From Fulvivirga ligni (lineage in GTDB: Bacteria > Bacteroidota > Bacteroidia > Cytophagales > Cyclobacteriaceae), in the NCBI RefSeq assembly GCF_021389935.1, contig NZ_CP089979.1, forward strand, positions 2,089,001 to 2,153,000: a stretch of 64,000 nucleotides of DNA. Reading direction: 5' to 3'. Every line of letters begins with the position of its first letter. Positions within the stretch are counted from its first letter, which is position 1. Below, one piece after another: positions 19,570-40,050 of this stretch. Both the position numbers and the translations under genes were made by a program. The notes beneath the pieces are model-generated. The model saw only the letters and a list, made by a program, of their open reading frames with translations. It searched no databases and was not told the origin of the DNA.

Positions 19570-19588
19570 TGTATAAAATACACTTAAT
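19570..19588 (+). promoter_or_regulatory. AraR-type operator candidate upstream of susC1
   Basis: TGTATAAAATACACTTAAT, 42 bases before the susC1 ATG. The core TGTAT-AAA-ATACA is an inverted repeat. The same motif is found at 24366 and 40033. A TAAATCTTT stretch (19547-19556) upstream may be the -7 region. Confidence 0.65.
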
Positions 19589-19611
19589 ATTTTATCACTA
19601 AACCTAACACC

Positions 19612-22600
19612 ATGATAAAAACTCTACTACTACAATTTTCCTTCATTCCTATTCTCCGAAGGGGAGCCTATCTAATGGGAGTGTTGGTGCTGCTCTGTGT
19701 GTCTGAGCTTCAGGCTCAGGATGTTAGAACTGTTACAGGAAAAGTAACGTCTTCAGAAGAGAATGAGGCTTTGCCCGGTGTAAATGTCCTGATTGAGGGT
19801 ACCACTAAAGGTACCGTTACAGGTGTGGATGGAACTTATTCTATCCAGGTATCCAATAATGATGTGCTGGTTTTTTCATTCGTAGGCTTTGTTACCAAAC
19901 AGTTGCCGGTAGGAAATATGACTACCATGGATGTGAAACTAGAGCTTGACATTACCTCGTTGGATGAGGTGGTGGTTTTAGGATATGGTAAACAGCTGAA
20001 GTCTGATGTTACAAGCTCTGTCGCCGCCGTTAAAGATGATGAATTTATAAAAGGAAATGTGGTAGATGCGGGCCAGCTTATTCAGGGCAAGGTAGCTGGA
20101 CTCACCGTTTCTATGCCTAGTGGTGATCCTACCTCCGGGACGCAGATACTACTAAGAGGGCAAAGTACAATTTTAGGAACTAACGTAAGTCCGCTCATAC
20201 TTATAGATGGAATTCCTGGAGATTTCAAAACCGTGCCACCAGAAGATATTGCTTCCATCAGTGTATTGAAAGATGGCTCCGCAGCGGCCATTTACGGTAC
20301 CAGAGGTACCAATGGAGTTATTCTTATCACCACTAAAAGAGCCAGCGGAAGCCTGAATGGACTGGATTATTCGGTGAGCTTCAGTACTCAGCAGATCACC
20401 AGAAAACCAGAGTTATTAACCGCCGGTGACTATCAAGCCCAGATAGCAGCAGGCGACAGGGCAGCTCAGTGGGATCTTGGAAGTTCAACGGACTGGTTGG
20501 ATGAAATCACTCAAACACCTTTCAGCCATGTGCACAACCTTACTTATCGGGGAGGAAATACTACTACCAATTACTTGGCTAATATCAACTATAGAGATCT
20601 AGAGGGGATCTTCCTAAAATCTGATAATCAAACCTTTACTGGGCGTATCGATATAAACCACGCCATGTTTAATGATAAGCTTAAATTTAACTTAGGTCTA
20701 TTAAGCTCAGCGAATAACTTCACTAGTACTGGAGATGGGGCCAGCTTCAACGGTTACACTTACAGACAAGCACTTCTTTATAATCCTACTTCGCCTATTT
20801 ATAATGATGACGGCTATTACTATGAGCAAACCGGTTTGTTTAATTATGAAAACCCATTGGGAAGAATCTATGAATCGGATGGCGAGCACAGATCTCAAAA
20901 TGTAAGGTATACTGCCTCAGTAAGCTATTTGCCCGTAACAGGCCTAGAGCTTAAATCTAATTTTTCAGTAAACAGATACAATCAAACCAGAGGCTATGCC
21001 GAATCGAAGCATCATATTTCTACTTTAAGAGATGGCAGAAATGGTTTTGTATCTAATGGCACCAGAGAAACCCAGGATAGATTAATGGAGCTTACGGCCA
21101 ACTATTCTACGGTTTTCGGTAATCATAATATTTCTGTTTTGGCGGGCTACAGCTACCAGGATTTCTACTATAGAGATTATTGGATGCAAAACTGGGATTT
21201 TCCTACTGATATTTTCAGCTACCATAATATAGATCAAGGTCAGGCTATAAGAGAGGGGGAAGTAAATGTACCTATAGATGGCTTCACTTCTAAAACTAAC
21301 TTAATAGGCTTTTTTGGTCGGGTAACTTATTCTTATGAAGATAAATATCTGTTCATGGCCAGCCTTCGTCATGAGGCGGCCAGTCAGTTGGTGGGTACAG
21401 AAGATCCATGGGGAACCTTCCCGGCGGTATCAGTAGGCTGGAAAATATCTAATGAGTCATTTCTTTCAGGAAGCAATATAGTAGAACTACTAAAGTTAAG
21501 AGCTGGCTATGGTGTTACAGGTTCCCAAAACTCAGCGCCTTTCGGAGCGGTAGCATTATTGTCTTATAATAATTTCTACTATTTCAATGGTTCATGGGTG
21601 CCTACACTTTCACCTTCACAAAACTTTAACCCATATCTTCAGTGGGAAGAGAAAAAAGAACAGAATTATGGGATAGATTTTAGTTTACTGAAGGGCAGGG
21701 TTTACGGATCAGTAGACTATTACATCAGAAATATTGATAACCTGTTGTATGATTTCGCTGTGCCCAGCCCGCCAAACCTCTACAATACTACCCGCGCTAA
21801 TGTGGGAGTGATGGAAAATAAGGGATTGGAGGTATTGGTGAACATTGTGCCTATAAAAACTCCGGATTTTGAATGGACTACCTCTCTTAATTTCTCTACT
21901 AACCAAAATAGCCTCAAGAGTTTATCTAATGACTTGTATGAAGCTACTAATGACTGGTTTGTAACGGGAGCCACCGGTGAGCCGATCCAGACATATACTC
22001 ACCGGGTAGAGGTGGGTGAGGATATTGGCAATTTCTACGGTTTTAAAGTGGTGGATGTAGGTGAAGATGGTTTGTGGATTTACGAAAATGCTGAGGGTGA
22101 GAGAGTTGCTTACGCTGATTTCACTCATGCTGAAGAAGATAAGCAGGTCTTAGGAAACGGTTTGCCCAACTATTATGCAGGTTGGAATAATACTTTCCGG
22201 TATAAAAACATAGACCTGTCTATAACCATGCGGGGAGCTTTTGATTACCAGATTCTCAATTTCCAGCGCATGTATTATGAAAATCCTACCATTCAAAACT
22301 ACAATAGACTGGCTTCTTCTACTGACCCGGTATTTGGTAAGGCAGCACTAACCGCACCTTTAGAATATAACAGCTACTATATAGAAGATGGAGACTTCTG
22401 GAAGATCGATAATATTACCCTGGGGTATAACATTCCAGCCATTGGTAATAACTTCATAAAGAGAGCACGTATTTATGCCTCAGCTCTAAATGCTTTTGTA
22501 TTTACTGGCTATAGTGGCATAGATCCTGAAGTGAATCGTTTGGGGCTGGATCCCGGTAATGACGGTAGAGATAAATATCCCACCTCTCGTACCTACACCG

Positions 22601-22623
22601 TTGGTTTTAATATTTCTTTCTAG
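19612..22623 (+). CDS. SusC-like TonB-dependent outer-membrane transporter 1
   Basis: A 1003-residue receptor that imports oligosaccharides, here probably arabinan fragments. After a long signal peptide (about 1-35), a carboxypeptidase-D-like domain (about 40-120) contains GKVTSSEENEALPGVNVLIEG (written here as LPGVNV...GTVTGVDGTYS). The plug domain follows with DEVVVLGYGKQ, ILLRGQSTI and the SusC hallmark VLKDGSAAAIYGTRGTNGVI; key parts are VLKDGSA and IYGTRG. The remainder is the 22-stranded barrel ending in an aromatic GFNISF. It is the first gene of the arabinan locus, 18 bases before its SusD partner, with an AraR-type motif 42 bases before the start. Confidence 0.95.
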   Translation: MIKTLLLQFSFIPILRRGAYLMGVLVLLCVSELQAQDVRTVTGKVTSSEENEALPGVNVLIEGTTKGTVTGVDGTYSIQVSNNDVLVFSFVGFVTKQLPVGNMTTMDVKLELDITSLDEVVVLGYGKQLKSDVTSSVAAVKDDEFIKGNVVDAGQLIQGKVAGLTVSMPSGDPTSGTQILLRGQSTILGTNVSPLILIDGIPGDFKTVPPEDIASISVLKDGSAAAIYGTRGTNGVILITTKRASGSLNGLDYSVSFSTQQITRKPELLTAGDYQAQIAAGDRAAQWDLGSSTDWLDEITQTPFSHVHNLTYRGGNTTTNYLANINYRDLEGIFLKSDNQTFTGRIDINHAMFNDKLKFNLGLLSSANNFTSTGDGASFNGYTYRQALLYNPTSPIYNDDGYYYEQTGLFNYENPLGRIYESDGEHRSQNVRYTASVSYLPVTGLELKSNFSVNRYNQTRGYAESKHHISTLRDGRNGFVSNGTRETQDRLMELTANYSTVFGNHNISVLAGYSYQDFYYRDYWMQNWDFPTDIFSYHNIDQGQAIREGEVNVPIDGFTSKTNLIGFFGRVTYSYEDKYLFMASLRHEAASQLVGTEDPWGTFPAVSVGWKISNESFLSGSNIVELLKLRAGYGVTGSQNSAPFGAVALLSYNNFYYFNGSWVPTLSPSQNFNPYLQWEEKKEQNYGIDFSLLKGRVYGSVDYYIRNIDNLLYDFAVPSPPNLYNTTRANVGVMENKGLEVLVNIVPIKTPDFEWTTSLNFSTNQNSLKSLSNDLYEATNDWFVTGATGEPIQTYTHRVEVGEDIGNFYGFKVVDVGEDGLWIYENAEGERVAYADFTHAEEDKQVLGNGLPNYYAGWNNTFRYKNIDLSITMRGAFDYQILNFQRMYYENPTIQNYNRLASSTDPVFGKAALTAPLEYNSYYIEDGDFWKIDNITLGYNIPAIGNNFIKRARIYASALNAFVFTGYSGIDPEVNRLGLDPGNDGRDKYPTSRTYTVGFNISF

Positions 22624-22641
22624 GGCCTAAAGCATACTTCA

Positions 22642-24276
22642 ATGAAAAAGTTAATTAATCATAAAACACTTATAGCTAGTATCTTCATAATTACAGCCCT
22701 TTTTTCTTGTACTGAGCTGGAAGATGAAAGCTTCAATAATATAGTTTCCAAAGATTTTACACCCACCACTGAGCAGGAGATTGCCTCAATTGTAGGATCT
22801 ACCTATGTGGCCTGGAGACAGACCTTTTTGCTATGGAATGGTGTATGGCGCAGTCAGGAAGTATCTGCAGACCAGATAGTGATACCCGCACGCCCTAATG
22901 GCTGGGTAGATGGTGGTGTTTACAGACGGATACATGAACATAATTGGACAGCTCTCGAAGATAATGTATTCCAAGGCTGGAATAGAACTTATGCAGGTAT
23001 TACTAACTGTAACAGAGTTATTTATCAGATAGAATCAGACATTTTGCCTTTAGGTGAAAATGCGGCTTCTACCTTGGCAGAGCTCAGAGTGCTAAGGGCT
23101 TCATATTATTACATTCTTATAGATTTGTATGGAAATGTGCCCATAGTTACAGACTTTGATGTGCCTGAAGGCTTTTTACCTGAGCAGAAAAGTAGAGAAG
23201 GGGTATATCAGTTTGTAGTGAAGGAAATACTGGATAACATAGATATGCTTAGCGAGGCAAACGATGGCACCACCTATGCCAGGTTTAATAAATGGGCGGC
23301 CTATACCTTATTAGCTAAGATTTACCTAAATGCAGAAGTTTACACAGGCATCGAGCAGTGGGGCAAATGCATAGAGGCGTGTGATGCTGTGATTAATTCT
23401 GGCGCTGGCTATATCTTGGAGCCTGATCAGAAAAATGTTTTTGTAACAGAAAACGAAGGATCAAAGGAAATAATTTTCGCGCTTCCTATAGATGAAACAT
23501 ACACCACCGATTGGAATGCTTTTGATGTACATATGCAATCTTTACAACCGGCAAATCAGGCCACTTATAAACTGCTCTTTAGCCCTTGGGGTGGTATGTG
23601 TGCCATTCCACAGTTCATAGATACATTTGACCCCGAAGACAGCCGACTGACTCAAAACTTTATCTATGGGCAGCAGTACTCCGCTAGTGGAGAAATGCTT
23701 ATGGGAACGTTAGGAGCCTCAAGCGGCCAGCCTTTGGCCTATATTAATGAGCTACCTGGAGTAGATCAATCAGAAGAAATTCATGGCTATCGTTTTGGCA
23801 AGTTTGAAATAGAAGTAGGCTCATCCAATATTCTGAATAATGACTTTCCATTATTCAGATATGCAGATGTACTCATGATGAAAGCTGAGTGTCTGCTAAG
23901 AAACGGTAAAGCTGATGAAGCAGCTCAGATAGTATCTCAGGTGAGAGAGAGAAGCTTCAAGGCTAATCCCTCCAAAGCTACCGTTACCGGTGATCAGCTA
24001 ATGCAAGGAAGCGTGTATGATTATGGCCTTAGAAACCACTTGGAGACTACCGCAGAAGGTGGTGCCGATGTAGAGTACGGACGCTTTTTAGATGAGCTGG
24101 CCTGGGAGTTTAACCAGGAGGGCCGCAGAAGACAAGATATGATCAGATTTGGAGTGTATACTACCAAATCTTGGTTGTCTCATTCAGCCAGTGCTGATTA
24201 CAAAAAGCTTTATCCTATTCCACAGACGGAAATCAATAACAATATCAATTTGGGGCAGAACTTCGGATATGATTAA
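22642..24276 (+). CDS. SusD-like glycan-binding lipoprotein 1
   Basis: A 544-residue surface lipoprotein that closes over the SusC1 barrel and captures oligosaccharide. The lipobox ALFSC gives the lipidated cysteine at C23. The N-terminal SusD region shows ELRVLRASYYYILIDLYGNVP and NKWAAYTLLAKIYLNAEVY (key parts RASYYYILIDLYGNVP and LLAKIYLNAE), and the C-terminal RagB/SusD region has LFRYADVLMMKAE and WEFNQEGRRRQDMIRFG. These are standard SusD helices. It follows susC1 by 18 bases and is followed by a terminator, so susC1-susD1 form one unit separate from the second pair. Confidence 0.94.
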   Translation: MKKLINHKTLIASIFIITALFSCTELEDESFNNIVSKDFTPTTEQEIASIVGSTYVAWRQTFLLWNGVWRSQEVSADQIVIPARPNGWVDGGVYRRIHEHNWTALEDNVFQGWNRTYAGITNCNRVIYQIESDILPLGENAASTLAELRVLRASYYYILIDLYGNVPIVTDFDVPEGFLPEQKSREGVYQFVVKEILDNIDMLSEANDGTTYARFNKWAAYTLLAKIYLNAEVYTGIEQWGKCIEACDAVINSGAGYILEPDQKNVFVTENEGSKEIIFALPIDETYTTDWNAFDVHMQSLQPANQATYKLLFSPWGGMCAIPQFIDTFDPEDSRLTQNFIYGQQYSASGEMLMGTLGASSGQPLAYINELPGVDQSEEIHGYRFGKFEIEVGSSNILNNDFPLFRYADVLMMKAECLLRNGKADEAAQIVSQVRERSFKANPSKATVTGDQLMQGSVYDYGLRNHLETTAEGGADVEYGRFLDELAWEFNQEGRRRQDMIRFGVYTTKSWLSHSASADYKKLYPIPQTEINNNINLGQNFGYD

Positions 24277-24332: not shown

Positions 24333-24365
24333 AACATTCAAACTAAATTTTTTTATCTAAATAAA

Positions 24366-24383
24366 TGTGAAAAATACACTTAA
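24366..24383 (+). promoter_or_regulatory. AraR-type operator candidate upstream of susC2
   Basis: TGTGAAAAATACACTTAA, 41 bases before the susC2 ATG, at nearly the same spacing as the susC1 copy. A TAAATTT stretch at 24344-24350 may belong to the promoter. Confidence 0.65.
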
Positions 24384-24406: not shown

Positions 24407-27400
24407 ATGAATGAAAAATTACACTTACTGTTTAGGCATCGTTTCGGCTGCATTAGCATAAGGCTACTCGGAATGGTGATTATGCTACTATTATCATTAC
24501 CCACCTGGGCACAAAATGATAAGCTCATCAGCGGTAAAGTTCTTTCTGCTGATGAAAACGAACCTCTACCCGGAGTAAATATCGTCATTAAGGGTACGCT
24601 TGAAGGCACTGTTTCAGGAGCTGATGGCAGCTATTCTTTACAAGCTTCATCTGATGATGTGCTGGTATTTTCTTTTGTCGGCTTTGCCACTAAGGAGGTA
24701 AAAGTAGGATCGCAATCTCAAATAGATGTTTCTTTAGCCTCAGATTTCACCTCTTTGGAAGAAGTGGTGGTGGTGGGATATGGTACGCAGCAAAAATCTG
24801 ATATCACCGGCTCCGTGGGTATTGTGGATGCTGACGAAATGAAAAAGTTTGCTACCAGTGATGTGTCTCAGCTACTACAGGGTCGAGTATCCGGAGTGCA
24901 GGTGAATAGCGATGGTCAGCCAGGAGCTGCACCCAGCGTGCGAATTCGGGGTTTTAGTACATTCGGTAATGCTCAACCTCTTTATGTTATTGATGGCGTG
25001 CCTATTGGTACATCGCCTCGAGATTTCAATCCAAATGATGTAGAATCTGTGCAGGTACTTAAAGATGCTTCAGCAGGAGCAATTTATGGATCTCGTGCCG
25101 CCAACGGAGTGATCATTATTACCACGAAAAAAGGAAAGCAAAATACTCCTTTAAAAGTGAGCTATAGTGGCTATTACGGCATTGATAAAGTTTGGCAGAT
25201 CATACCAGTATTAGAGCGAGAAGACTATCAGATGATTGTCAACGAAGTGCGATCTAATGCCGGCTTGTCTTTGTTGCCAGGAAATGATCCTAACTCACCG
25301 GTCTTTATTGATGACGTAAATACAGACTGGCAAGAGAAAGGGCTGAAAACCGGATCACGACAAAACCATAATATCAATTTTTCTGGCGGTGGTCAGAATA
25401 TGACTTATAACGTTTCTTTAGATTATTTCGATAATGAAGGCACATTTGTCGGAAACGGACCTGACTACAAACGTTACTCTGCCAGAATAAATACCACTAC
25501 TGAAAAAGGGATTTTCAAATTTGGTCAGTCCTTTTATTATGCACACTCGCATGAAAATACCCTGACTTATAATTCTACAGTGCTCAAGGGTAGTCGTCCA
25601 CCATTAATTATTGATCTGGTGGAGGCCGTGCCAACCCAAAAAATCTATGATGACAACAATGTTGGTGGATATGGAGGTACTGAAGCAGAAATTCATAATG
25701 TTATTTCGCTGAATGCCATTGGTATCAACAGCATGTTTGAAAATTATACAGATGTAGACCGTATTCTCGCTTCTGGCTATGGAGAGCTGGCACTTATAGA
25801 TAATGACAAACATAAGTTGAAATACAAGTTGAATCTCAGCTATGATAAAACAGTGGCTCATGATTTCTCTTTTATCCCTGCTTTTGATTTGGGTTATTTC
25901 TTTAACCTTGAAAATGCTCAAATGGATGAGGGAAACAGAACTTATACCACCGGCCTTGTGGAAAATACACTTAATTATAGTTTAAAGCTCGAGAAGCATA
26001 CATTAGATGTTTTGGTTGGTCAGATGTATCAAAATGTGAGTTTTTATGATGCTTTCGGCCACACTGAAAATCTTACAGAGCCATATTTCCCTACTTTAAA
26101 CAGTGGTTCTAATAAATCAGCGTCGGGAGGTAAAAGCGAAAGTGTGCTTTCATCTTATCTAGGAAGAATTAACTATAATTATGATGACAGATATTTATTA
26201 ACGGCAACTATTAGAAGAGACGGTTCTTCACGTTTCGCACCGGATTATAGATATGGTAATTTCCCATCCATAGCACTAGGTTGGAGGCTTTCCAATGAGA
26301 GCTTCCTGAAGATGCCTACCTTCATTGACGATGTGAAAATTAGAGCCAGCTATGGCCAACTGGGTAATCAAAATATTGGTGACTACCTCTATTCTCCATA
26401 CATCAACTCTAACATTCCCTATAACTTTAATGGTGTAAAGGTCATAGGCGGCCTGCAAACCAGCGTGGTTTCAGAAAGGATAAAGTGGGAGGTGAAAACT
26501 TCTACCAACATTGGGGCGGACGTATCCTTATTTAATGGCAAGGTTGACTTCTCAGCTGAGTACTATAATAGTAAAACAGAAGATCTTTTGGTAGGAGTAC
26601 CTATTCCATTTACCGTAGGGTCCGTGAACTTCAGGCCTACGGTAAATGCAGGTAGTATGCGAAACCGCGGTTTTGAGTTTGTGCTTGGCTATCATAAACA
26701 TAGTGGCGATTGGAATTTTGATATATCAGCCAACCTTTCTACGCTGAAAAACGAAGTACTTTCCTTAGGAGGAAACGATGAGCCGATCTACGGCGCCGGA
26801 TCAAAAACGGAGGTAGGAAGTGAAGTAGGTCAGCATTTTGGATATGAGGTGCTCGGCATTTTCCAGAGTGAGGCAGAACTATTAGAGCATGCTGAGCAAA
26901 GTGCAGCTACAGCTCCGGGAGACATCAAATTTAAGGATCAACTTACTGTGGATACTGATGGTGACGGTGTGCCTGATGCTGCCGATGGTATTATAAATGC
27001 CGATGACAGAGTGTATTTAGGCAGCGCTATTCCTAATCTGACTTATGGTCTTAACGTTTCCATTGGTTATAAGAACTTTGATTTTACCTTATTTACATCA
27101 GGCGCTTCAGGCTACAAGATCAATAGCCGCATGTACAGAGATCTCATGCTTACCACCGATTACATCAACAGGCATGAAGATATCCTGGACCGCTGGACGC
27201 CAGAGAATACAGATACTGATATCCCACGATTGGTGTCTGATGATCCTAATGGAAACCAAAGAGACTCTAACCGTAAGGGATTCTTGCAAGATGGTGATTA
27301 TCTGAGAATTAACACCGTCTCGCTAGGGTATACATTGCCAAGAGGTCTGGTGAAAGGGTTGGATAATGCTCGGGTGTACCTTACCTGTCAGAACCTGTAT

Positions 27401-27523
27401 AGCTTCCAGTCTTACAAAGGTTATAACCCTGATTTTACATCAGATGTATTTTCTCCGGGGTTTGACTTTGGCTCATTTCCAAAGCCCAGAACTATCATGT
27501 TAGGCGTTCAGCTAGGTTTTTAA
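24407..27523 (+). CDS. SusC-like TonB-dependent outer-membrane transporter 2
   Basis: A 1038-residue SusC protein, related to but clearly different from the first copy. The signal peptide ends near residue 36 (LPTWAQ). The carboxypeptidase-D-like domain has LPGVNIVIKG and GTVSGADGSYS; the plug has EEVVVVGYGTQQKSDITGS, RIRGFSTF and VLKDASAGAIYGSRAANGV. The barrel ends in MLGVQLGF. An insert with DTDGDGVPDAADGIINADD (about residues 845-865) resembles a calcium-binding loop. It has its own operator-like motif and is followed after 25 bases by its SusD partner. The two transporters probably take arabinan fragments of different size or branching. Confidence 0.95.
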   Translation: MNEKLHLLFRHRFGCISIRLLGMVIMLLLSLPTWAQNDKLISGKVLSADENEPLPGVNIVIKGTLEGTVSGADGSYSLQASSDDVLVFSFVGFATKEVKVGSQSQIDVSLASDFTSLEEVVVVGYGTQQKSDITGSVGIVDADEMKKFATSDVSQLLQGRVSGVQVNSDGQPGAAPSVRIRGFSTFGNAQPLYVIDGVPIGTSPRDFNPNDVESVQVLKDASAGAIYGSRAANGVIIITTKKGKQNTPLKVSYSGYYGIDKVWQIIPVLEREDYQMIVNEVRSNAGLSLLPGNDPNSPVFIDDVNTDWQEKGLKTGSRQNHNINFSGGGQNMTYNVSLDYFDNEGTFVGNGPDYKRYSARINTTTEKGIFKFGQSFYYAHSHENTLTYNSTVLKGSRPPLIIDLVEAVPTQKIYDDNNVGGYGGTEAEIHNVISLNAIGINSMFENYTDVDRILASGYGELALIDNDKHKLKYKLNLSYDKTVAHDFSFIPAFDLGYFFNLENAQMDEGNRTYTTGLVENTLNYSLKLEKHTLDVLVGQMYQNVSFYDAFGHTENLTEPYFPTLNSGSNKSASGGKSESVLSSYLGRINYNYDDRYLLTATIRRDGSSRFAPDYRYGNFPSIALGWRLSNESFLKMPTFIDDVKIRASYGQLGNQNIGDYLYSPYINSNIPYNFNGVKVIGGLQTSVVSERIKWEVKTSTNIGADVSLFNGKVDFSAEYYNSKTEDLLVGVPIPFTVGSVNFRPTVNAGSMRNRGFEFVLGYHKHSGDWNFDISANLSTLKNEVLSLGGNDEPIYGAGSKTEVGSEVGQHFGYEVLGIFQSEAELLEHAEQSAATAPGDIKFKDQLTVDTDGDGVPDAADGIINADDRVYLGSAIPNLTYGLNVSIGYKNFDFTLFTSGASGYKINSRMYRDLMLTTDYINRHEDILDRWTPENTDTDIPRLVSDDPNGNQRDSNRKGFLQDGDYLRINTVSLGYTLPRGLVKGLDNARVYLTCQNLYSFQSYKGYNPDFTSDVFSPGFDFGSFPKPRTIMLGVQLGF

Positions 27524-29114: not shown

Positions 29115-29121
29115 TGACAAT

Positions 29122-29176
29122 AAGAGATGGTGCCATACTTTTAAGTAAGGGTTTTTAGTATGGGCCATCTCTTTAC
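29122..29176 (+). terminator. Hairpin after susD2 (terminator or attenuator)
   Basis: AAGAGATGGTGCCATAC (29122-29138) pairs with GTATGGGCCATCTCTT (29158-29173) with one bulge, followed by T. It may reduce transcription into the glycosidase genes relative to susCD2. Confidence 0.65.
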
Positions 29177-30698: not shown

Positions 30699-30717
30699 AA
30701 TTATAATAGATTAATTC

Positions 30718-32268
30718 ATGAAATCAAACTTCTTATACTTAAACCTAATCATAGCTTTTTTTGCAGTGGGCCTGGCTCATGGGCAGGAGGCCACTGTAAA
30801 ACTTCAGCCTGCAGATAATGCTCCGGTTATTAATAAGCACATTTATGGCCATTTTGCCGAGCACTTGGGCAGATGCATTTATGGAGGTTTCTACGTGGGC
30901 GAAGGAAACACCAAAATCCCTAATACTAATGGAGTTAGAAATGACATTATTGAGGCTCTTAAAGAACTTCAAATCCCTAATTTAAGATGGCCAGGTGGTT
31001 GCTTTGCAGATACTTACCATTGGAAAGATGGCATCGGTCCGAAAGCAGATAGACCTACCATGGTGAACCGCTGGTGGGGCGGGGTGACGGAAGATAATAG
31101 TTTCGGTACCCATGACTTTCTAAATATGTGCGAAGAAATAGGTGCAGAACCTTACCTGGCAGCCAATGTAGGAAGCGGAACAGTAAAAGAGCTTACCGAC
31201 TGGGTGCAATATGTAGGTCATGAAGGTGGAAGCCCAATGTCTAAATTAAGATTGGAAAATGGGCGTAAAGAACCATGGGACGTTACCTTCTGGGGAGTTG
31301 GTAATGAAATGTGGGGCTGCGGTGGCAATATGACGCCTGAATATTATGCTAACTTGTATAAGCAATATGCCACCTTTATGACGGATTGGTCTAATAGCGA
31401 TAGTCTGTTTAGAATAGCTTCCGGAGCTAACGTAGCAGACTATCACTGGACTGAAGTACTCATGCGCGATATACCCAAAAATTTGATAGAAGGAGTGGCA
31501 CTTCATTCTTACTCATTTGTAGAATGGCATAAGAAAGGTTCTGCCACCGCCTTTGACGAGGCGCAGTATTTTTCTACCATGCAAACCGCATTGAAAATGG
31601 ATGAATTGGTAACAAAGCACTCGGCTATTATGGATAAGTATGATCCGGAAAAGAGGATAGCTCTGGTAGTAGATGAGTGGGGCGGCTGGTATAATGTGGA
31701 AGAGGGAACTAACCCCGGATTTCTTTATCAGCAAAACACTATGCGCGATGCCATGATTGCAGGTACTACCCTGAATATCTTTAACAATCATAGCGAAAGA
31801 GTTCGAATGGCTAACCTGGCTCAAACCGTAAATGTGTTGCAGGCCGTTATCCTTACCGATGGTGAGAAAATGTTGCTCACACCTACCTACTATGTGCTAA
31901 ATATGTACAAGGTGCATCATGATGCCACGCTGATACCTGTAGATCTGAAAACGGCTGATTATCAGTTTAATGGAGAAAAACTGCCGGCGGTTTCAGTATC
32001 AGCTTCTAAAGATAAGAATGGAGCCGTTCACATTACTTTGGTAAATATCGATGCAGCTAAAAGCCAGTCGGTAACTATCAATTTGGGTAATATCGACGGT
32101 AAAAACCTTACAGGACAAATCCTTCAATCAGATAAATTGCAAAATCACAATACCTTCGATCAGCCAAATGCTATACAACCAACTGATTTTAAAGATTTTA
32201 AACATAAAAAGAACGAATTAACGGTGAAGCTACCTGCGTTTTCGGTAGTAATGTTAGAGATAAAATAA
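30718..32268 (+). CDS. GH51 alpha-L-arabinofuranosidase, classical type, exported
   Basis: A 516-residue exo-enzyme that removes terminal arabinofuranose from arabinan or arabino-oligosaccharides. A signal peptide covers about residues 1-22 and there is no lipobox, so a periplasmic location is likely. The (beta/alpha)8 barrel has RWPGGCFAD, GNEMWGCGG with acid/base E197, and VVDEWGGWY with nucleophile E320. The C-terminal beta-sandwich begins near residue 390. It is 19 bases after the endo-arabinanase gene and 3 bases before a second, distinct GH51 gene. Confidence 0.93.
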   Translation: MKSNFLYLNLIIAFFAVGLAHGQEATVKLQPADNAPVINKHIYGHFAEHLGRCIYGGFYVGEGNTKIPNTNGVRNDIIEALKELQIPNLRWPGGCFADTYHWKDGIGPKADRPTMVNRWWGGVTEDNSFGTHDFLNMCEEIGAEPYLAANVGSGTVKELTDWVQYVGHEGGSPMSKLRLENGRKEPWDVTFWGVGNEMWGCGGNMTPEYYANLYKQYATFMTDWSNSDSLFRIASGANVADYHWTEVLMRDIPKNLIEGVALHSYSFVEWHKKGSATAFDEAQYFSTMQTALKMDELVTKHSAIMDKYDPEKRIALVVDEWGGWYNVEEGTNPGFLYQQNTMRDAMIAGTTLNIFNNHSERVRMANLAQTVNVLQAVILTDGEKMLLTPTYYVLNMYKVHHDATLIPVDLKTADYQFNGEKLPAVSVSASKDKNGAVHITLVNIDAAKSQSVTINLGNIDGKNLTGQILQSDKLQNHNTFDQPNAIQPTDFKDFKHKKNELTVKLPAFSVVMLEIK

Positions 32269-32271
32269 GAA

Positions 32272-34248
32272 ATGAGAATGATATCTAAATACCTATTGAT
32301 TGTATGTTGCAGTCTTGCCTTATCTACGACTGTTTTTGCTCAAGAATATAACTGGCAGCTAGATACTAAGCCCAAAGCTAACATTCAGCCCACTATGTAT
32401 GGTGTCTTCTTCGAGGATATCAACTTTGCCGCTGATGGAGGCCTGTATGCCGAACTGGTGAAGAACAGGTCTTTCGAATTTGATGAGCCGCTCATGGGGT
32501 GGATACAGCCTAACAGCGATAGACATTCTTTAAATGAAAAGTCGGGGATAGCCAATGTAATTAAACGAGGAGATGAACCTAACAATCATTTTGCGAGAGT
32601 TAATGTGAAAAATGCTAGTGGTTATCAATTGATTAACGAAGGTTTCCGAGGCATGGGCATCAAGGATGGAGCACAGTATAATCTTACGCTTCAAGCCAGG
32701 TTAATCGGTGAGATCAAGGCCATTAAGGTGCAGCTTATCAACGAACAAAACGCTGAAATAGCTGCAGCTATTATAAAGCCTGGCGCGAAAGACTGGAAAG
32801 AATATTCGGCTACTTTAACAGCTAATGGTACGGCAGGAAAAGCCAAAATGAAGCTCACTTTTGAAGGGGCTGGAGAGATAGACCTGGACATGATCTCACT
32901 ATTTCCTGAAGACACCTGGAAGGGGCGAAAAAGAGGTCTTAGAAAGGATTTGGTACAACTATTATATGATCTAAAACCTGGCTTTTTAAGGTTTCCCGGC
33001 GGCTGTATTGTTGAGGGAAGAACCTTGGCTAAAAGATACCAGTGGAAGAAAACTGTAGGCGATGAGGAGGACAGGGAAATGCTTATCAACCGCTGGAATA
33101 CAGAGTTTGGCCATAGATTGACACCTGATTATTACCAAAGCTTTGGAATAGGCTTTTTTGAATACTTTCAACTTTCAGAAGATCTTGGTGCAGAGCCACT
33201 TCCCATTTTAAGCTGTGGTATGGCTTGCCAGTTTAACACCGGAGAGCTGGTGCCTATGGATCAACTCGATCCGTATGTGCAAGATGCACTTGACCTCATA
33301 GAATTTGCAAATGGTGACACCAGCAGCAAATGGGGTAAATTAAGAGCTGATATGGGCCATCCGGAACCTTTTAATCTGAAATACATAGGTGTAGGAAACG
33401 AACAGTGGGGCCCAGACTACTTTGATAGACTCAAGGTGTTCATAAAATCTATCAAGTCTCAATATCCTGATATGATTGTGGTTTCTGGTACCGGTCCTTT
33501 CCCTGACGGAGAGCAGTTTGAGTATGCCGAAAAGCAGCTGGAAAACCTGGACACTGAAATAGTGGATGAACACTATTACCGCAGCCCAGAATGGTTCTTG
33601 GATAATGCTGATCGATATGACAGCTATGACCGTGATAGGTATAAGATTTTTGCAGGAGAATATGCAGCCCAAAGTGTGGCCATCGCCAGCCCGGAGAATA
33701 AAAACAATTGGAATTGCGCCCTATCGGAAGCTGCCTACATGACCGGCCTGGAAAGGAATGCCGATGTGGTGTATATGACCTCTTACGCGCCACTCTTTGC
33801 CCATGTAGATGCCTGGCAATGGACTCCCGATTTGATCTGGTTTGATAACCTAAAGTCTTATGGTACAGCTAATTATTATGTTCAGAAGTTATATTCTAAT
33901 AACCCAGGTACTAAGCTGCTTTCCATAACCAATGGAGAACAACCCATTAAAGGGCAGGACAGACTTTATGCGTCCGCGGTGCTGGATGACAAGACAGGAG
34001 AGGTGATAGTAAAACTTGTGAATGCTAACACTACCTCTAAAAAAGTGAATATCTCGCTTAAAAGCGGGAAAATGGCCACCAAAGGTACCGTTCAGATCTT
34101 GCGATCATCAGATCTTGATGCAGTAAACTCTTTGGATAAACCTATGAATGTCAGCCCTGTACAGCAAGATTTGAAGCTTAAAGGAGGTAAATTATCAATG
34201 GAACTAGAGCCTGGCAGCTTTTATGTGATTAGAACCAAAACGAAATGA
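32272..34248 (+). CDS. GH51 alpha-L-arabinofuranosidase with inserted CBM4-like domain, exported
   Basis: A 658-residue GH51 enzyme of the longer type. A signal peptide ends near residue 24 (TVFAQ). After GVFFEDINFAADGGLYAELV, an inserted beta-sandwich of about 120 residues (about 95-210; similar to CBM4_9) precedes the main barrel with RFPGGCIVEG. Catalytic motifs are GVGNEQWG (E377, acid/base) and FAGEYAA (E463, nucleophile). This type acts on arabinan or arabinoxylan side chains and differs in domain order from the GH51 gene before it, so the two probably prefer different linkages. The start could be 32272 or 32278. Its last four bases overlap the next gene. Confidence 0.92.
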   Translation: MRMISKYLLIVCCSLALSTTVFAQEYNWQLDTKPKANIQPTMYGVFFEDINFAADGGLYAELVKNRSFEFDEPLMGWIQPNSDRHSLNEKSGIANVIKRGDEPNNHFARVNVKNASGYQLINEGFRGMGIKDGAQYNLTLQARLIGEIKAIKVQLINEQNAEIAAAIIKPGAKDWKEYSATLTANGTAGKAKMKLTFEGAGEIDLDMISLFPEDTWKGRKRGLRKDLVQLLYDLKPGFLRFPGGCIVEGRTLAKRYQWKKTVGDEEDREMLINRWNTEFGHRLTPDYYQSFGIGFFEYFQLSEDLGAEPLPILSCGMACQFNTGELVPMDQLDPYVQDALDLIEFANGDTSSKWGKLRADMGHPEPFNLKYIGVGNEQWGPDYFDRLKVFIKSIKSQYPDMIVVSGTGPFPDGEQFEYAEKQLENLDTEIVDEHYYRSPEWFLDNADRYDSYDRDRYKIFAGEYAAQSVAIASPENKNNWNCALSEAAYMTGLERNADVVYMTSYAPLFAHVDAWQWTPDLIWFDNLKSYGTANYYVQKLYSNNPGTKLLSITNGEQPIKGQDRLYASAVLDDKTGEVIVKLVNANTTSKKVNISLKSGKMATKGTVQILRSSDLDAVNSLDKPMNVSPVQQDLKLKGGKLSMELEPGSFYVIRTKTK

Positions 34249-35258
34249 TAACCCGTTTGAAATCTGCCTTTTTGATAATAATAGTTCTTATCATTTCAAA
34301 TACGGTAATGAGTGCCCAGGAGTTGAGTGATGACATCATTGTTCATGATCCTGTTATGATCAAAGAGGCAGATACTTATTATCTATTTTGCACAGGTTGG
34401 GGTATTTCTGTCTATAGTTCTAAGGATAGGAAGAATTGGAAGAAGGAAAAGCCTGTTTTTGCAGCTCCTCCGGCCTGGGCATTAGAAACGGTATCAGGAT
34501 TTAAAGGGCATATTTGGGCTCCTGACATCTCCTTTTATGACGGAAAGTATTACCTGTATTATTCCATTTCCGCTTTTGCTAAAAACACTTCAGCCATAGG
34601 GTTAGTGGTAAATAAAACATTAAACCCTGCAAGTCCTGATTATCAGTGGGTTGATCAGGGTCTGGTAGTTCAATCTGTACCCTATCGTGACTTTTGGAAC
34701 GCCATAGACCCGAACTTGGCTATAGATGAAACCGGTCAGCCCTGGTTGAGCTTCGGTTCATTTTGGGGTGGATTGAAAATGGTGAAGCTCAGTGATGACA
34801 GAAAATCATTAGCCCAGCCAGAAGAATGGTGTTCTATTGCCAAAAGGCAAAGAACTGACTTTTTGGATGATAAAGATCCTGGTGATGCAGCTCTGGAAGC
34901 CCCTTTTATCTTCAAGAAAAATGACTACTACTATTTATTTGCCTCCTGGGACTATTGCTGCCGTGGGGCGGAAAGCACTTACAAAATGGTGGTGGGCAGA
35001 TCACAGAAAATACAAGGGCCTTATCTGGATAAAAGCGGAAAAAGCATGGCAGAAGGAGGAGGCACTATACTGCTTCAGGGAAATGAAGTATATCCTGGTG
35101 TTGGGCACAATAGCGCTTATGCTTTTGACGGTAAAGATTATTTACTCTTTCATGCCTATGACATGAAGGATGACGGAAAACCTAAACTGAAAATTACTGA
35201 AATGACCTGGGATGAAGAAGGTTGGCCTATGGTGTCAACAGAAGTTTTGTCTGAATAG
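34245..35258 (+). CDS. GH43 endo-arabinanase-like enzyme, exported, single domain
   Basis: A 337-residue single-domain GH43 propeller with a signal peptide (about 1-24) and no lipobox. Catalytic positions are VHDPV (D35), AIDPN (D155) and EAPFIF (E218). SWDYCCRGAESTYKMVVGRS, with its paired cysteines, is typical of the endo-1,5-arabinanase subfamily, and HIWAPDISFYDGKYYLYYS is the usual substrate-facing blade. The ATGA overlap with the GH51 gene indicates tight coupling. Likely periplasmic, trimming imported arabinan oligosaccharides. Confidence 0.9.
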   Translation: MITRLKSAFLIIIVLIISNTVMSAQELSDDIIVHDPVMIKEADTYYLFCTGWGISVYSSKDRKNWKKEKPVFAAPPAWALETVSGFKGHIWAPDISFYDGKYYLYYSISAFAKNTSAIGLVVNKTLNPASPDYQWVDQGLVVQSVPYRDFWNAIDPNLAIDETGQPWLSFGSFWGGLKMVKLSDDRKSLAQPEEWCSIAKRQRTDFLDDKDPGDAALEAPFIFKKNDYYYLFASWDYCCRGAESTYKMVVGRSQKIQGPYLDKSGKSMAEGGGTILLQGNEVYPGVGHNSAYAFDGKDYLLFHAYDMKDDGKPKLKITEMTWDEEGWPMVSTEVLSE

Positions 35259-35286
35259 CCCAGGTTATTGCAAACCTAACTTACTC

Positions 35287-36282
35287 ATGAAGAATCTACA
35301 TACACTTACCATAATTGCAACTTTGATATTATCAGGCTGCCAAAACAATAATGAAACTCAGGAAGAAATTGATAAACCATCTACCGATAGTGTAGCCGCC
35401 TACAATCCGGTTTTTAAAGATATTTATACCGCCGATCCTGCGGCCATGGTTCATGACGGTACATTATATCTATACACAGGACATGACGAGCAGGCAGTGG
35501 GAGCTCAAGGCTTTCTGATGAATGATTGGCTTTTGTTTTCTACTAAGGATATGGTGAATTGGGAAAAGCATGGACCAATATTAAAAACCACCGATTTTAA
35601 ATGGGCTAACGGCCAGGCCTGGGCATCTCATGTGGTCGAAAAAGAAGGCAAGTTCTATTGGTATGTCACTCTGGAGCATGCCAGTGTCCCGGGAAAATCT
35701 ATTGGTGTAGCAGTGGCCGATTCACCGGCTGGCCCATTTAAAGATGCTATTGGCAAAGCGCTGATTACTAATGATATGACCAAGCAGACAGACATCGGCT
35801 GGGATGATATTGACCCAGCGGTATTCGCGGATGACGATGGTCAGGCCTATATCTATTGGGGCAATACGGTTTGTAAGTGGGCCAAATTAAAGGATAATAT
35901 GATAGAGCTGGAAGGAGAAATTCATACCATCGATTTACCATCTTTCACTGAAGCGCCGTGGGTACATAAAAGGGGAGATCATTATTACCTTAGTTTTGCT
36001 GCTCAATTCCCGGAAGTGATAGATTATGCCATGGCTACTAGTCCGGAAGGACCATGGGAATACAAAGGCCGACTGAATGATTTAGTGCCTCATTCACCTA
36101 CAAACCACCAGGCCATACTAGAGTTTAATGATCGCTGGTACTTCATTTATCATAACGGATTGCTGCCCCAGGGTGGAGAGTTCAGGCGCTCAGTGTGCAT
36201 AGAAAATCTTTATTATAATGAAGATGGCACCATACAGAAGATAGTCCAAACCAAAGAAGGTGCGTCGGACGAGTTGGATTAA
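35287..36282 (+). CDS. GH43 glycosidase (probable exo-acting arabinofuranosidase), lipoprotein
   Basis: A 331-residue GH43 protein from the ATG at 35287. That start gives a lipoprotein signal ending LILSGC (C18); an in-frame start at 35212 overlaps the previous gene and lacks a signal. Catalytic positions are YTADPAAM (D50), DDIDPAVF (D176) and FTEAPWVH (E222). It lacks the CC(R/N)G motif of the endo-arabinanases encoded around it, and GFLMNDWLLFSTKDMVNWE resembles exo-acting GH43 branches (arabinofuranosidase or xylosidase). Substrate is inferred from the arabinan context. It is followed after two bases by a small helix-turn-helix gene. Confidence 0.85.
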   Translation: MKNLHTLTIIATLILSGCQNNNETQEEIDKPSTDSVAAYNPVFKDIYTADPAAMVHDGTLYLYTGHDEQAVGAQGFLMNDWLLFSTKDMVNWEKHGPILKTTDFKWANGQAWASHVVEKEGKFYWYVTLEHASVPGKSIGVAVADSPAGPFKDAIGKALITNDMTKQTDIGWDDIDPAVFADDDGQAYIYWGNTVCKWAKLKDNMIELEGEIHTIDLPSFTEAPWVHKRGDHYYLSFAAQFPEVIDYAMATSPEGPWEYKGRLNDLVPHSPTNHQAILEFNDRWYFIYHNGLLPQGGEFRRSVCIENLYYNEDGTIQKIVQTKEGASDELD

Positions 36283-36284
36283 TC

Positions 36285-36576: not shown

Positions 36577-38190
36577 ATGAAGCAATTTAACAAACAACTG
36601 AAAGCTGGTATGGTCACGGCCATACTAGCTTTGGTGGGGCACCTGGCTTTTGCTCAATATCCGCCTAGCCATGATCCATCTACCATGATTCGAAACACGG
36701 ATGGTCGCTATTGGATTTTTACCACAGGGCAGGGCATCTGGGCCATGTCTTCCAGCAATGCCAATTTTACTGATTGGCGGGTAGAGCCCACACCATTCCC
36801 AACTAACTCTTGGCCCGGGTGGATCAGTAACTATGTATCAGGCTTTGGAGGCTTCTTTTGGGCTCCTGATGTTATAAAAATTGGTAATACCTATTTCCTT
36901 TATTATTCATGTGCCGGAAATGGTGCACCGGCCGCAATCGGTGTGGCTACGGCCACTAACCTGGCAGGTCCCTGGACAGATCGAGGTATGGTGGTAGCAG
37001 GAAATAATGCCATTGATCCTGCTCTGCTTTTAGATAATGGCCGCCTATGGATGTCTTGGGGTAATTGGCAAAGTGGTATAGACATTATCGAGCTGAGTAC
37101 CAGCACCGGGAAACCCATTTCTGGTTCTACTCATCTGGTGTCTGGCCAGGTAGAAGGGCCAGGACTTTTTAAGAGTGGTAGCTACTATTATCTCTTTTAT
37201 CAACGAGGCCTTTGCTGTAATGGCGTTAACTCCAGCTACTACATGGTGGTGGCGCGTTCTACCAGTATTACCGGCCCATACACTGGAGAAAGGGTTTTCT
37301 TGCCTAATCAAAACGGTAATGTGGTGGGGCCAGGGCACTTCGGATATGGAGAGGGGCGGCTCACCTATCACTTTTATGATGCTAATGATAATGGTAATGC
37401 CAAGTTGATGATCCGTACTGACTTTGGAGTCTCCAATGGGTGGCCATATGTGGGCAGCCCACCGTCTTCAGGACCTGTGGTTTCAGGTGGCACCTACCGG
37501 ATTACTCCACGGCATAGCGGAAAGGCAGTAGATGTAGTAGCCTGCGGAAATACCAGTGGCACCAATGTGAATCAATGGACCTGGCTTAACAATAACTGTC
37601 AGAAATGGGTGTTCACAGATGTGGGCGGATCTTACCGAATATCGCCAATAAATGCGACCAATCTGGCCTTAGATGTTGAGAACTGTAACAGTGCCAACCT
37701 CACCAATGTAAGACTTTGGAGTTGGCTCAATAATAACTGCCAAAAATGGGAACTGATAAATAGAGGAAGCGGCTATTATTCCATTCGATCGCTGGCAACC
37801 GGTAAATGTTTGGATGTCAACGGTATATCAACAGCCGATGGGGCCAATGTAATGCAGTACGATTGTATTTCGGGTAATTATAATCAGCAGTTTCGCTTCG
37901 AAAGTGCCTCCGCATCTTTATTGGCCAGGCAGGGAGGTGAAGAATCCGAAATCCAACTTGACGGTGCTTATCCTAACCCAGTATCAGATCATCTGAACAT
38001 TAGAATCACCACGCCTTTCGAGGAAGAAACTACTTTTGAAGTAATTGATACATCTGGAAAAATATTAAAGCAGGGTGCTTTTAGAGGAGCAGAGTATAGC
38101 ATCGATATGAATGACCTGCCGACGGGAGTTTACATTCTCAATTATAAAAATATCGCAGGTTCTCACACTCAAAAAATAAGCAAGCTATGA
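36577..38190 (+). CDS. Secreted GH43 endo-arabinanase with ricin-type CBM13 and T9SS tail (copy 1)
   Basis: A 537-residue exoenzyme. Signal peptide (about 1-26); GH43 propeller (about 27-295) with SHDPS (D33), AIDPA (D147) and VEGPG (E193), and GLCCNGVNSSYYMVVARS typical of endo-arabinanases. A linker leads to a ricin-B-like CBM13 (about 305-445) with repeated WLNNNCQKW motifs. The C-terminal AYPNPVSDHLNI...GVYILNY region (about 465-537) is a T9SS sorting domain, so the protein should reach the surface or medium. It overlaps the next gene, a paralogue, by four bases. A 76-bp gap with small hairpins (CGGAAG/CTTCCG at 36507-36523) precedes it. Confidence 0.92.
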   Translation: MKQFNKQLKAGMVTAILALVGHLAFAQYPPSHDPSTMIRNTDGRYWIFTTGQGIWAMSSSNANFTDWRVEPTPFPTNSWPGWISNYVSGFGGFFWAPDVIKIGNTYFLYYSCAGNGAPAAIGVATATNLAGPWTDRGMVVAGNNAIDPALLLDNGRLWMSWGNWQSGIDIIELSTSTGKPISGSTHLVSGQVEGPGLFKSGSYYYLFYQRGLCCNGVNSSYYMVVARSTSITGPYTGERVFLPNQNGNVVGPGHFGYGEGRLTYHFYDANDNGNAKLMIRTDFGVSNGWPYVGSPPSSGPVVSGGTYRITPRHSGKAVDVVACGNTSGTNVNQWTWLNNNCQKWVFTDVGGSYRISPINATNLALDVENCNSANLTNVRLWSWLNNNCQKWELINRGSGYYSIRSLATGKCLDVNGISTADGANVMQYDCISGNYNQQFRFESASASLLARQGGEESEIQLDGAYPNPVSDHLNIRITTPFEEETTFEVIDTSGKILKQGAFRGAEYSIDMNDLPTGVYILNYKNIAGSHTQKISKL

Positions 38191-39851
38191 TTACAGGAGC
38201 TTCAAATATCAGGTACTTAATGGTAATTATCGGCCTGTTTATAACTGTGCATGTACAGGCCCAATATCCACCAAGCCATGATCCGTCTCAGATTATAAGG
38301 GATGGCAGCAAATACTATATCTTCAGCACTGGTGACGGCATTTGGACCATGTCTTCGAGCTCGCCGGATTTTACTACCTGGCAGGCCGAGCCAGCACCTT
38401 TTGCTAACGGGTGGCCCTCATGGATCAATAACTATGTTTCTGGTTTTCAAGGTTTTTTCTGGGCACCGGACTGTATTTATATGAATGGGCGGTATTATTT
38501 ATATTATTCAGCCTCTACCGGGCAAAGACCATGTGCTATCGGAGTGGCATCCACGGCCTCTCTCAATAATCCTAATTGGGTAGATCATGGTATGGTAGTT
38601 TATTCAAACAATAGCACCCCTTACGGTTCAATAGACCCAGATGTGTTTTTTGATCAACAAGGAAGGCTTTGGCTGGCATGGGGGTCTCATCTCATGGGCA
38701 TAGTGCTTACAGAGTTGAACCCATCCACCGGTAAGCCTTATAATGCTAATAACTATTACAATTTGGCAGATAGTCCGGCCCACGATTTGGAAGCGGCCTC
38801 TATTATTTATCGAAACGGCTATTATTATTTATTTTTTAATAGGAATACCTGCTGCGCTGGTACCAGTAGCACCTATACCATCTACATGGGTAGATCCACC
38901 AGTGTTACAGGACCCTATCTGGATAAAAATGGCAATAACTGCTTGAGCTCAGGAGGCTCAGTTTTCTTAAGCTCTTCGGGGCGATTTATCGGCCCTGGAC
39001 ATTTTGGCTACTCCGAAAACCGGCTCACTTATCATTTCTACGACGGACAGGATAATGGAGCCCCTAAGGTTCGAGTATCTACTTTAGGCTGGGATAACGG
39101 CTGGCCTTATGCTGGCTCTACGCCGCCATCAGGCCCCGTGGTTTCTGGAGGTACTTATAGAATTACGCCTCGCCATAGTGGCAAAGCTATCGATGTAGTT
39201 AATTGTGGTAACACAGATGGAACAAACGTAAACCAATGGAGCTGGCTTAATAATAACTGCCAAAAATGGGTGTTTACAGAGGTTGGTGGCTCTTACCGAG
39301 TATCACCTGTAAGTGCTACTAATATGGCTTTGGATGTTGAAAACTGTAATAGTGCTAATCTCACTAATGTGCGGTTGTGGAGTTGGCTGAATAATAACTG
39401 TCAAAAGTGGGAATTGCTGGATCGTGGCAGTGGTTATTATTCCATGAGATCCGTGGCTACAGGTAAGTGCCTAGATGTCAATGGAATATCTACAGCTGAT
39501 GGAGCCAATGTGATACAATATGATTGTATTTCTGGCAATTACAATCAGCAATTTAGGTTCGAAAGTACCTCTGCCTCATTATTAGCCAAACAGGGTGCAG
39601 TAGAAGCGGAAATTAAGCTGAATGAAGTGTATCCTAATCCCGTTGATGACTATCTCAATATAAAATTATCTGATCGTATTGATGGTGTTACGTCGTTTGA
39701 AATCATAGACAGTTCTGGAAAAGTTTGGCTGAAAGATAGCTTTAAAGGGCAACAGTATCAAATTCAGACAGACCGTCTGCCTTCAGGAATTTACATCCTT
39801 AATTATGAAAACGTGGCTGGTAGCTACACACAGAAAATCAGTAAGCCTTAG
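38187..39851 (+). CDS. Secreted GH43 endo-arabinanase with ricin-type CBM13 and T9SS tail (copy 2)
   Basis: A 554-residue tandem paralogue of the preceding gene with the same layout: signal peptide, GH43 propeller, CBM13, T9SS tail (VYPNPVDDYLNI...GIYILNY). Catalytic positions are SHDPS (D32), SIDPD (D150) and DLEAAS (E202). The catalytic domain has diverged from copy 1 (for example FNRNTCCAGTSSTYTIYMGRS, key part NTCCAGTSSTY), while the CBM13 is nearly unchanged at protein level. Synonymous positions differ freely, so this is an old duplication under selection rather than a recent copy. Its ATGA overlap with copy 1 implies coupled translation. A terminator follows. Confidence 0.92.
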   Translation: MITGASNIRYLMVIIGLFITVHVQAQYPPSHDPSQIIRDGSKYYIFSTGDGIWTMSSSSPDFTTWQAEPAPFANGWPSWINNYVSGFQGFFWAPDCIYMNGRYYLYYSASTGQRPCAIGVASTASLNNPNWVDHGMVVYSNNSTPYGSIDPDVFFDQQGRLWLAWGSHLMGIVLTELNPSTGKPYNANNYYNLADSPAHDLEAASIIYRNGYYYLFFNRNTCCAGTSSTYTIYMGRSTSVTGPYLDKNGNNCLSSGGSVFLSSSGRFIGPGHFGYSENRLTYHFYDGQDNGAPKVRVSTLGWDNGWPYAGSTPPSGPVVSGGTYRITPRHSGKAIDVVNCGNTDGTNVNQWSWLNNNCQKWVFTEVGGSYRVSPVSATNMALDVENCNSANLTNVRLWSWLNNNCQKWELLDRGSGYYSMRSVATGKCLDVNGISTADGANVIQYDCISGNYNQQFRFESTSASLLAKQGAVEAEIKLNEVYPNPVDDYLNIKLSDRIDGVTSFEIIDSSGKVWLKDSFKGQQYQIQTDRLPSGIYILNYENVAGSYTQKISKP

Positions 39852-39920
39852 CAATTCATTTAATCAGATAGCGTAGAAACTCATATTTTATTCAAAAAGA
39901 TTTGAGTATCTTATAATAAG

Positions 39921-39967
39921 AAAAGTACTGTATCCTGCCATTGTGCTAGGTAGGTTGCAGTGCTTTT
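39921..39967 (+). terminator. Terminator at the end of the glycosidase operon
   Basis: AAAAGTACTG (39921-39930) pairs with CAGTGCTTTT (39958-39967) with one G-T pair; the right arm ends in TTTT. Confidence 0.7.
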
Positions 39968-40032
39968 CATCATTGTAGCACTAAGCTGATCGGATAATGA
40001 GCAGCAACAAATCATTATACTTAAATTTTAAT

Positions 40033-40050
40033 TGTACAAAATACACTTAT
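40033..40050 (+). promoter_or_regulatory. AraR-type operator candidate upstream of araB
   Basis: TGTACAAAATACACTTAT, 67 bases before the araB ATG; third copy of the motif at 19570 and 24366. It directly follows TAAATTTTA (40022-40030), a possible -7 element, so binding would block transcription start. Confidence 0.65.

Follow-up and report, generated by a model that had tools for sequence, protein, structure and literature searches.

Evidence for an AraR-type arabinose regulon spanning arabinan uptake and arabinose catabolism genes in Fulvivirga ligni

Introduction

A stretch of 64,000 nucleotides from Fulvivirga ligni (contig NZ_CP089979.1, positions 2,089,001 to 2,153,000; hereafter the window, to whose first base coordinates refer unless otherwise indicated) carries an arabinan polysaccharide utilization locus (PUL), followed by genes for arabinose catabolism. 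Three copies of one short motif lie in front of susC1, susC2 and araB, and the gene next to susC1, here called araR, encodes a regulator with a Nudix-like domain. This arrangement raises the question of whether transport, degradation and catabolism are governed as one arabinose-controlled regulon, as had been proposed in the initial annotation of the stretch.

A switch of this type is known from gut Bacteroides. In Bacteroides thetaiotaomicron, AraR (BtAraR, BT0354) is a repressor of the arabinose genes that is relieved by arabinose (PMC5061871); its sugar-free dimer blocks transcription from the operator, and arabinose moves the winged helices and frees the DNA (PMC4666351). AraR has been reported in 17 Bacteroides and 15 Prevotella species (PMC4666351). 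As to Cytophagales and Flavobacteriia, none of the matches listed in the open-licence literature, with subscription papers and RegPrecise outside the scope, described an AraR-type regulator. The computational analysis presented here finds the switch, very probably as an arabinose-released repressor, in a bacterium only distantly related to Bacteroides, and would extend the regulator-operator pair known in Bacteroides and Prevotella to both of these groups.

Results and Discussion

Three intergenic sites share a 21-bp semipalindrome

The 17-mer motif occurs exactly at positions 19570, 24366 and 40033, leaving 42, 41 and 67 bases to the downstream starts of susC1 (19612), susC2 (24407) and araB (40100), respectively, and the positions and the two susC distances given in the initial annotation were correct when measured again. 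The 6.52-Mb genome was searched with the 17-mer, allowing up to two mismatches and using the reversed pattern as a control. Of the 35 places at which the motif was found, four matched exactly and 31 had two mismatches, with none at one mismatch; the control was found at 20. All four exact copies fall in this locus, compared with 0.016-0.049 expected per genome under Markov models of order 1 and 2. Because the pattern was drawn from three of its four sites, this rarity is partly circular and demonstrates rarity rather than function; the conservation and spacing in other genomes described below give support that is independent of how the pattern was derived.

The true element is wider than the 17-mer. 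At all three sites it is a 21-bp semipalindrome, TAAWTGT-N7-ACACTTA, in which a perfect half ACACTTA and a weaker half TAAWTGT are separated by a 7-base gap. Overlap with a promoter was considered as a cause of the weaker half but is not put forward. Exact matches to the pattern TAANTGT-N7-ACACTTA lie at five genomic positions, namely the three window sites, 3762651 (before a sigma-70-like gene) and 6191182, and at up to one mismatch the pattern gave 33 matches versus 23 for the reversed control, several places being counted on both strands because the pattern is nearly palindromic. In the known system, the oligonucleotides used in electrophoretic mobility shift assays with BtAraR contain GTGTATTTGATACAC, GTGTTACTTTTACAC and GTGTAAAAAAGACAC, all of the form GTGT-N7-ACAC (PMC4666351).

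The motif could alternatively be a promoter or leader element shared by the sus and ara genes, and no operator at all. Sites 1 and 2 lie at nearly equal distances from the susC starts and share ACTAAACCTA further downstream, as such an element might, and a scan with the sigma-70 consensus was uninformative (47 found versus 47.2 expected). Nevertheless, no further intergenic sequence in the genome matches the 17-mer exactly, and the element shows two-fold symmetry, prefers a gap of 7 bp and matches an operator shown to bind BtAraR. Its centre lies 35, 36 and 61 bp from the gene starts. We consider a promoter or leader element very unlikely.

The regulator encoded beside susC1 is of the AraR type

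The product of araR matches the Pfam families NUDIX (1.5e-12), NrtR_WHD (3.4e-24) and AraR_C (2.6e-07), all above cut-off. Its Nudix box reads GFLKQNETLNEAASRVLTHLTGL, where R-E-x-x-E-E has become R-V-x-x-H-L and three glutamates are replaced, in line with the impaired box of Bacteroidota AraR, which lacks two or three of them; both the broken hydrolase box and the winged helix described in the initial annotation were therefore recovered. The closest solved relative is BtAraR (5bs6, phmmer 3.6e-74), with 107 of 218 aligned residues identical (49%). In contrast, 3gz5, a MutT/nudix protein that we take to be the NrtR of Shewanella oneidensis, of the nicotinamide adenine dinucleotide (NAD) type, has the same domain order but a far weaker similarity (5.8e-23), and the ADP-ribose positions R98 and K76 of the Shewanella protein are V and L in the Fulvivirga protein. 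A separate paralogue lies beside NAMPT-type genes in the Fulvivirga genome. Another member of the family, BtXylR (BT0791), is likewise predicted to be sugar-responsive in Bacteroides (PMC3878776, PMC4666351) but concerns xylose genes.

Nine of the ten residues lining the arabinose pocket are the same as in BtAraR (Y5, R34, F36, G47, G48, F49, R86, F129 and H131), including all three that form hydrogen bonds with L-arabinose, R34, R86 and H131. Among the six main DNA contacts, which were reported to be invariant in AraR orthologues (PMC4666351), K179, R180, N181, K184 and K204 are kept. Residue conservation was also followed in relatives, for which the best 80 of 271 confirmed araR loci, found in named genomes with the window protein, were taken, each with flanks of up to 8 kb. 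R34 is present in 79 of the 80 (with one gap), R86 and H131 in all 80, the Fulvivirga residues T92 and K205 in 79 and 80, respectively; since the loci were picked by similarity to the window protein, these counts lean towards its own form. Judged by its sequence, the protein is an AraR of the NrtR family, belonging to a branch outside Bacteroides and Prevotella.

The sites and their 7-bp spacing recur in relatives

Half-site pairs were sought in the 80 loci at spacers of 3 to 13, requiring TGT and ACA to be present and a minimum of 10 of the 12 letters of AAGTGT/ACACTT to match. With a spacer of 7, 137 intergenic pairs were found, in 64 of the 80 loci, and each of the other ten spacers gave 0-13; many of the loci are from Flavobacterium and are not independent, and all spacers were counted in the same loci. 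The genes nearest to the 137 sites are araR (34), susC2-like genes (33), unlabelled genes (30), GH51 (16), araB (13), symporter (5) and galM (2), with one each at a susC1-like, a susD2-like and a GH43 gene and one at none. Within the same stretches, araA, araB or araD was present in 31 of the 80 loci and a homologue of the glycoside hydrolase (GH) family 51 gene in 47. Another 12 sites came from ten further relatives, searched over 20 stretches totalling about 379 kb; they occur in seven of the ten, none of them inside a called open reading frame (ORF) and one before a second araR-like gene. The comparison yields a search pattern, W/GTGT-N7-ACAC, tested over the 80 loci. The far half-site is ATGT before 21 of the 33 susC2-like genes and 11 of the 16 GH51 genes, and 10 of the 13 araB sites have GTGT on both sides, a pattern that may reflect graded affinity.

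The sites were also aligned between F. ligni and two sister species, G005 and G006, the araR of the latter being identical to that of Fulvivirga sediminis. In these three Fulvivirga genomes, 20 of 21 columns of the araB site are identical versus 57 of 194 flanking columns, and 18 of 21 columns of the susC2 site versus 39 of 156. The araB of G005 appears as two ORFs in its sequence (L094:4672-6368).

These comparisons bear on the explanation that the three sites arose by chance, or by one recent promoter duplication carried to three places. In favour of it, the very sites in question supplied the pattern, and the upstream regions of the paralogues susC1 and susC2 are partly similar. However, the number of exact copies far exceeds the fraction of one expected, two sites are conserved in the sister species despite diverged flanks, and a site also precedes the susC1-like gene of Robertkochia (L125). 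Both chance and duplication are already contradicted by the spacer-7 and sister-species results, and we regard them as extremely improbable.

Other NrtR-type regulators in the genome

The genome contains seven NrtR_WHD genes (eight matches, two of them overlapping at one place), and the recognition helices of their products are alike. The sites could thus be genuine operators that are read by another of these paralogues, such as the galK- or pfkA-linked one, or that are shared by several. Both of these copies have an operator-like site nearby: GTGT-N7-ACAA by the galK-linked copy (L119:10247-10267) and TAAGTGTTACGATTACACTAA, a GTGT-N7-ACAC site, between the pfkA-linked copy and the phosphofructokinase gene (G000:C1:4358633-4358653; L089:1501-1521). 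Nevertheless, in relatives such sites accompany this AraR, GH51 and susC genes and the arabinose genes; at the DNA-contacting position K179 the galK-linked copy carries D, and the pfkA-linked site ends in ACACTAA rather than ACACTTA. Reading of the three sites by another paralogue is accordingly improbable, if the least so of the alternatives considered. Identity to BtAraR is 49.1% for the window protein and 35.5-43.8% for the other six proteins. A tree was built from 58 rows, including 22 loci hand-picked from the 80 for spread, and rooted on five of the genome's own paralogues. In it, BtAraR, the window protein and the galK-linked copy formed one group apart from those five (100/98).

The seven genes adjoin SusCD, GH3, GH30, galactokinase, phosphofructokinase, NAMPT and arabinose genes. 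For the six paralogues of araR, Pfam identifies galactokinase, phosphofructokinase, NAMPT, GH3 and GH30 genes among the neighbours. The NrtR family of this genome looks expanded into sugar-linked regulators. Each of the two sister genomes has a single copy of the 21-mer of the pfkA-linked site, and NrtR-type control of glycolysis through it is possible. The winged-helix match of the pfkA-linked paralogue lies in two overlapping pieces in different open frames (L037/L038, G000:C1:4357939-4358122), as if its reading frame were interrupted.

A repressor released by arabinose

The positions, spacing and conservation of the sites, together with the family membership, conserved residues and gene context of the regulator, were obtained by computation; operator binding, arabinose as ligand and repression are predicted from homology with BtAraR. 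On this combined evidence, AraR is very probably a repressor, released by arabinose, of SusCD transport, arabinan hydrolysis, araBAD and an unlinked GH51 gene. The sugar-free dimer would occupy the 21-bp operators of susC1, susC2 and araB and hold transcription down. Arabinose reaching the cytoplasm would bind the Nudix-like domain, the winged helices would shift and the dimer would leave the DNA, so that outer-membrane import, arabinan hydrolysis and catabolism by AraBAD would rise together; the unlinked GH51 gene would probably follow the same control. In B. thetaiotaomicron, growth on arabinose raises araM mRNA about 30-fold over glucose, a difference that disappears in an araR mutant, where the level is as high on glucose as on arabinose (PMC5061871).

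The unlinked gene, at 6.32 Mb, has the AraR-type site TAAGTGTATATTTAACACRTA (G000:C1:6320709-6320729; L113:12710-12730) 22 bp upstream. In the three Fulvivirga genomes, 20 of 22 columns at this site are identical versus 52 of 152 flanking columns, and because the site was kept while its flanks diverged, the gene is probably a member of the regulon. GH2-like, GH127-like and SusCD-like genes lie near it. Two further genes are weak candidates: a GH12-lectin gene (4.194 Mb), with a site in its own genome and in G006, the sole sister genome with a match for the gene, and a lectin gene (0.372 Mb), with a site in its own genome and in G005 but not in G006.

The Fulvivirga system resembles the BtAraR regulon in its NrtR-family regulator with Nudix-like and winged-helix domains, in 21-bp semipalindromic operators with a 7-bp gap, in its (here predicted) targets, an arabinose operon and a SusCD arabinan locus, and in the location of araR near those targets. 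It differs in having one operator before araB instead of a tandem pair, and in an araR that adjoins susC1 rather than lying inside the ara operon.

Several observations weigh against an arabinose-released repressor acting at these sites. In the regulator, the pocket residue V92 of BtAraR is T, and R205, reported invariant in Bacteroides and Prevotella AraR, is K. D178 alone is kept among six more residues in van der Waals contact with DNA, S163, R183, K200, A207 and A208 all being changed. Just 15 of the 80 relatives have K184 and 17 have K204 (51 have R there), so that not all DNA contacts are fixed in this branch of AraR, and the tree gave no firm order among BtAraR, the galK-linked branch and the window branch. 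At the DNA level, the far half-site is A/TTGT, not GTGT, at the three sites, and the bases adjoining the araB site are partly conserved as well. A spacer of 7 was also the most frequent among coding matches (19, versus 4-16 at other spacers), and at the threshold used no spacer-7 site was found in 16 of the 80 loci (two of which span less than 6 kb and the others about 16.7 kb) and no site in G014, G057 and G075 among the ten further relatives. Finally, in B. thetaiotaomicron the loss of araR left the steady level of arabinan-PUL mRNA unchanged on glucose and arabinose, and altered only the time course of PUL mRNA after a switch to arabinan (PMC5061871); repression of the PUL genes is therefore not to be assumed here.

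A limit also appears within the locus. No AraR-type site was found, at the scan threshold used, directly in front of the two GH43-lectin genes (36577-39851) or the symporter gene (45540), and the evidence for AraR control thus stops short of the whole PUL. Taken together, the single arabinose regulon over transport, degradation and catabolism put forward in the initial annotation is well supported by BtAraR homology, operator layout, relatives and gene context, and probably gains the distal GH51 gene; that reading was largely correct, although AraR may act on less than the whole PUL.

Control logic in the absence of a local HTCS

In B. thetaiotaomicron, activation of the arabinan PUL, of the BT0360-BT0369 type, depends on the hybrid two-component system (HTCS) BT0366, with AraR layered over it (PMC5061871). 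In contrast, scanning all 18 main ORFs at 18124-47153 revealed no HTCS, unlinked HTCS genes not having been sought, and the one HTCS of the window belongs to a pectin cluster. The initial annotation was thus right that the Fulvivirga PUL has no local HTCS, but its description of AraR as an added layer is not wholly apt, because with no HTCS at the locus AraR may be the main local switch. It is tentatively conceivable, though on balance doubtful, that the arabinan locus of this lineage has no local switch besides AraR, with the monosaccharide sensed in the cytoplasm and no periplasmic oligosaccharide sensor, which would differ from the two-signal logic of B. thetaiotaomicron. An HTCS-like ORF of more than 1000 amino acids was present in only 5 of the 80 araR loci, within the stretches taken, a count based on similarity to the window's HTCS that may miss distant ones. 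In the relative G027, a complete HTCS (L104:14718-19049) lies beside araR, with an AraR-type site between them and an arabinan PUL next door. This case weighs against a sole switch, because control by AraR alone would then not be universal; in G027, AraR possibly controls the HTCS gene. The locus therefore poses a testable question, whether a monosaccharide repressor can run an arabinan locus without a local oligosaccharide sensor.

Gene units and other sites

The genes around the predicted operators are listed in Table 1. Every gene of unit 3 exceeded the cut-off in one or more NCBIfam models, and the GH43-lectin pair matched the NCBIfam AbnA model below its cut-off. Gaps of about 240-290 bp precede the two GH43-lectin genes and the symporter gene.

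Table 1. Predicted operators and genes of the arabinan and arabinose locus in the window
Feature	Position	Strand	Sequence, location or basis
araR, NrtR-family regulator (Nudix-like domain and winged helix), 229 aa	18636..19325	-	Pfam, phmmer
Operator 1 (predicted)	19566..19586	+	TAAATGTATAAAATACACTTA; araR-susC1 divergent gap; centre 36 bp before susC1 start
susC1 (TonB-dependent receptor), unit 1	19612..22623	+	Pfam Plug, CarbopepD_reg_2
susD1, unit 1	22642..24276	+	Pfam SusD_RagB 2.1e-25
Operator 2 (predicted)	24362..24382	+	TAAATGTGAAAAATACACTTA; centre 35 bp before susC2 start
susC2 (TonB-dependent receptor), first gene of unit 2	24407..27523	+	Pfam Plug
Fourth exact 17-mer copy	25957..25973	+	Inside susC2 codons; absent from the initial annotation
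Rest of unit 2 (starts: susD2 27549, GH43 29196, GH51 30718, GH51 32272, GH43 34245, GH43 35212)	27549..36282	+	Pfam; operon inferred from close ORF spacing
Two GH43-ricin lectin-type IX secretion system (T9SS) proteins, arabinanase-like	36577..39851	+	Pfam
Operator 3 (predicted)	40029..40049	+	TAATTGTACAAAATACACTTA; centre 61 bp before araB start
Unit 3 (starts: araB 40100, araD 41787, araA 42523, galM-type mutarotase 44118)	40100..45296	+
Sodium/solute symporter, possible arabinose importer	45540..47153	+	NCBIfam sss 1e-109

The fourth exact copy of the 17-mer was rejected as an operator, since it consists of SusC codons and synonymous changes disrupt it in two sister species. It encodes the SusC residues VENTLNY, of which N, L and Y are kept in 37, 37 and 40 of 42 SusC sequences compared; G005 and G006 have the same residues in different codons and so depart from the 17-mer at two and three positions. 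With the coding residues kept and the 17-mer lost in the sisters, this copy is best explained by common codons that happen to spell the motif. Nor is the site at 6191182, in front of a gene for a beta-helix protein, claimed as an operator, none being present before the orthologues in two sister species. A scan of the genome for the Crp-like motif of Bacteroides gave no signal (5 matches versus 6.78 expected).

At 52522-52540, inside a small ORF near pheT, the window contains the palindrome AAGTGTA-CAA-TACACTT, which was rejected as an AraR operator because its half-sites are AraR-like but its gap is 5 bp, not 7. The pectin cluster occupies window positions 1-9957 and comprises a GH95 fragment at the window edge, a pectinesterase, a pectate lyase and the HTCS mentioned above (3816-7778).

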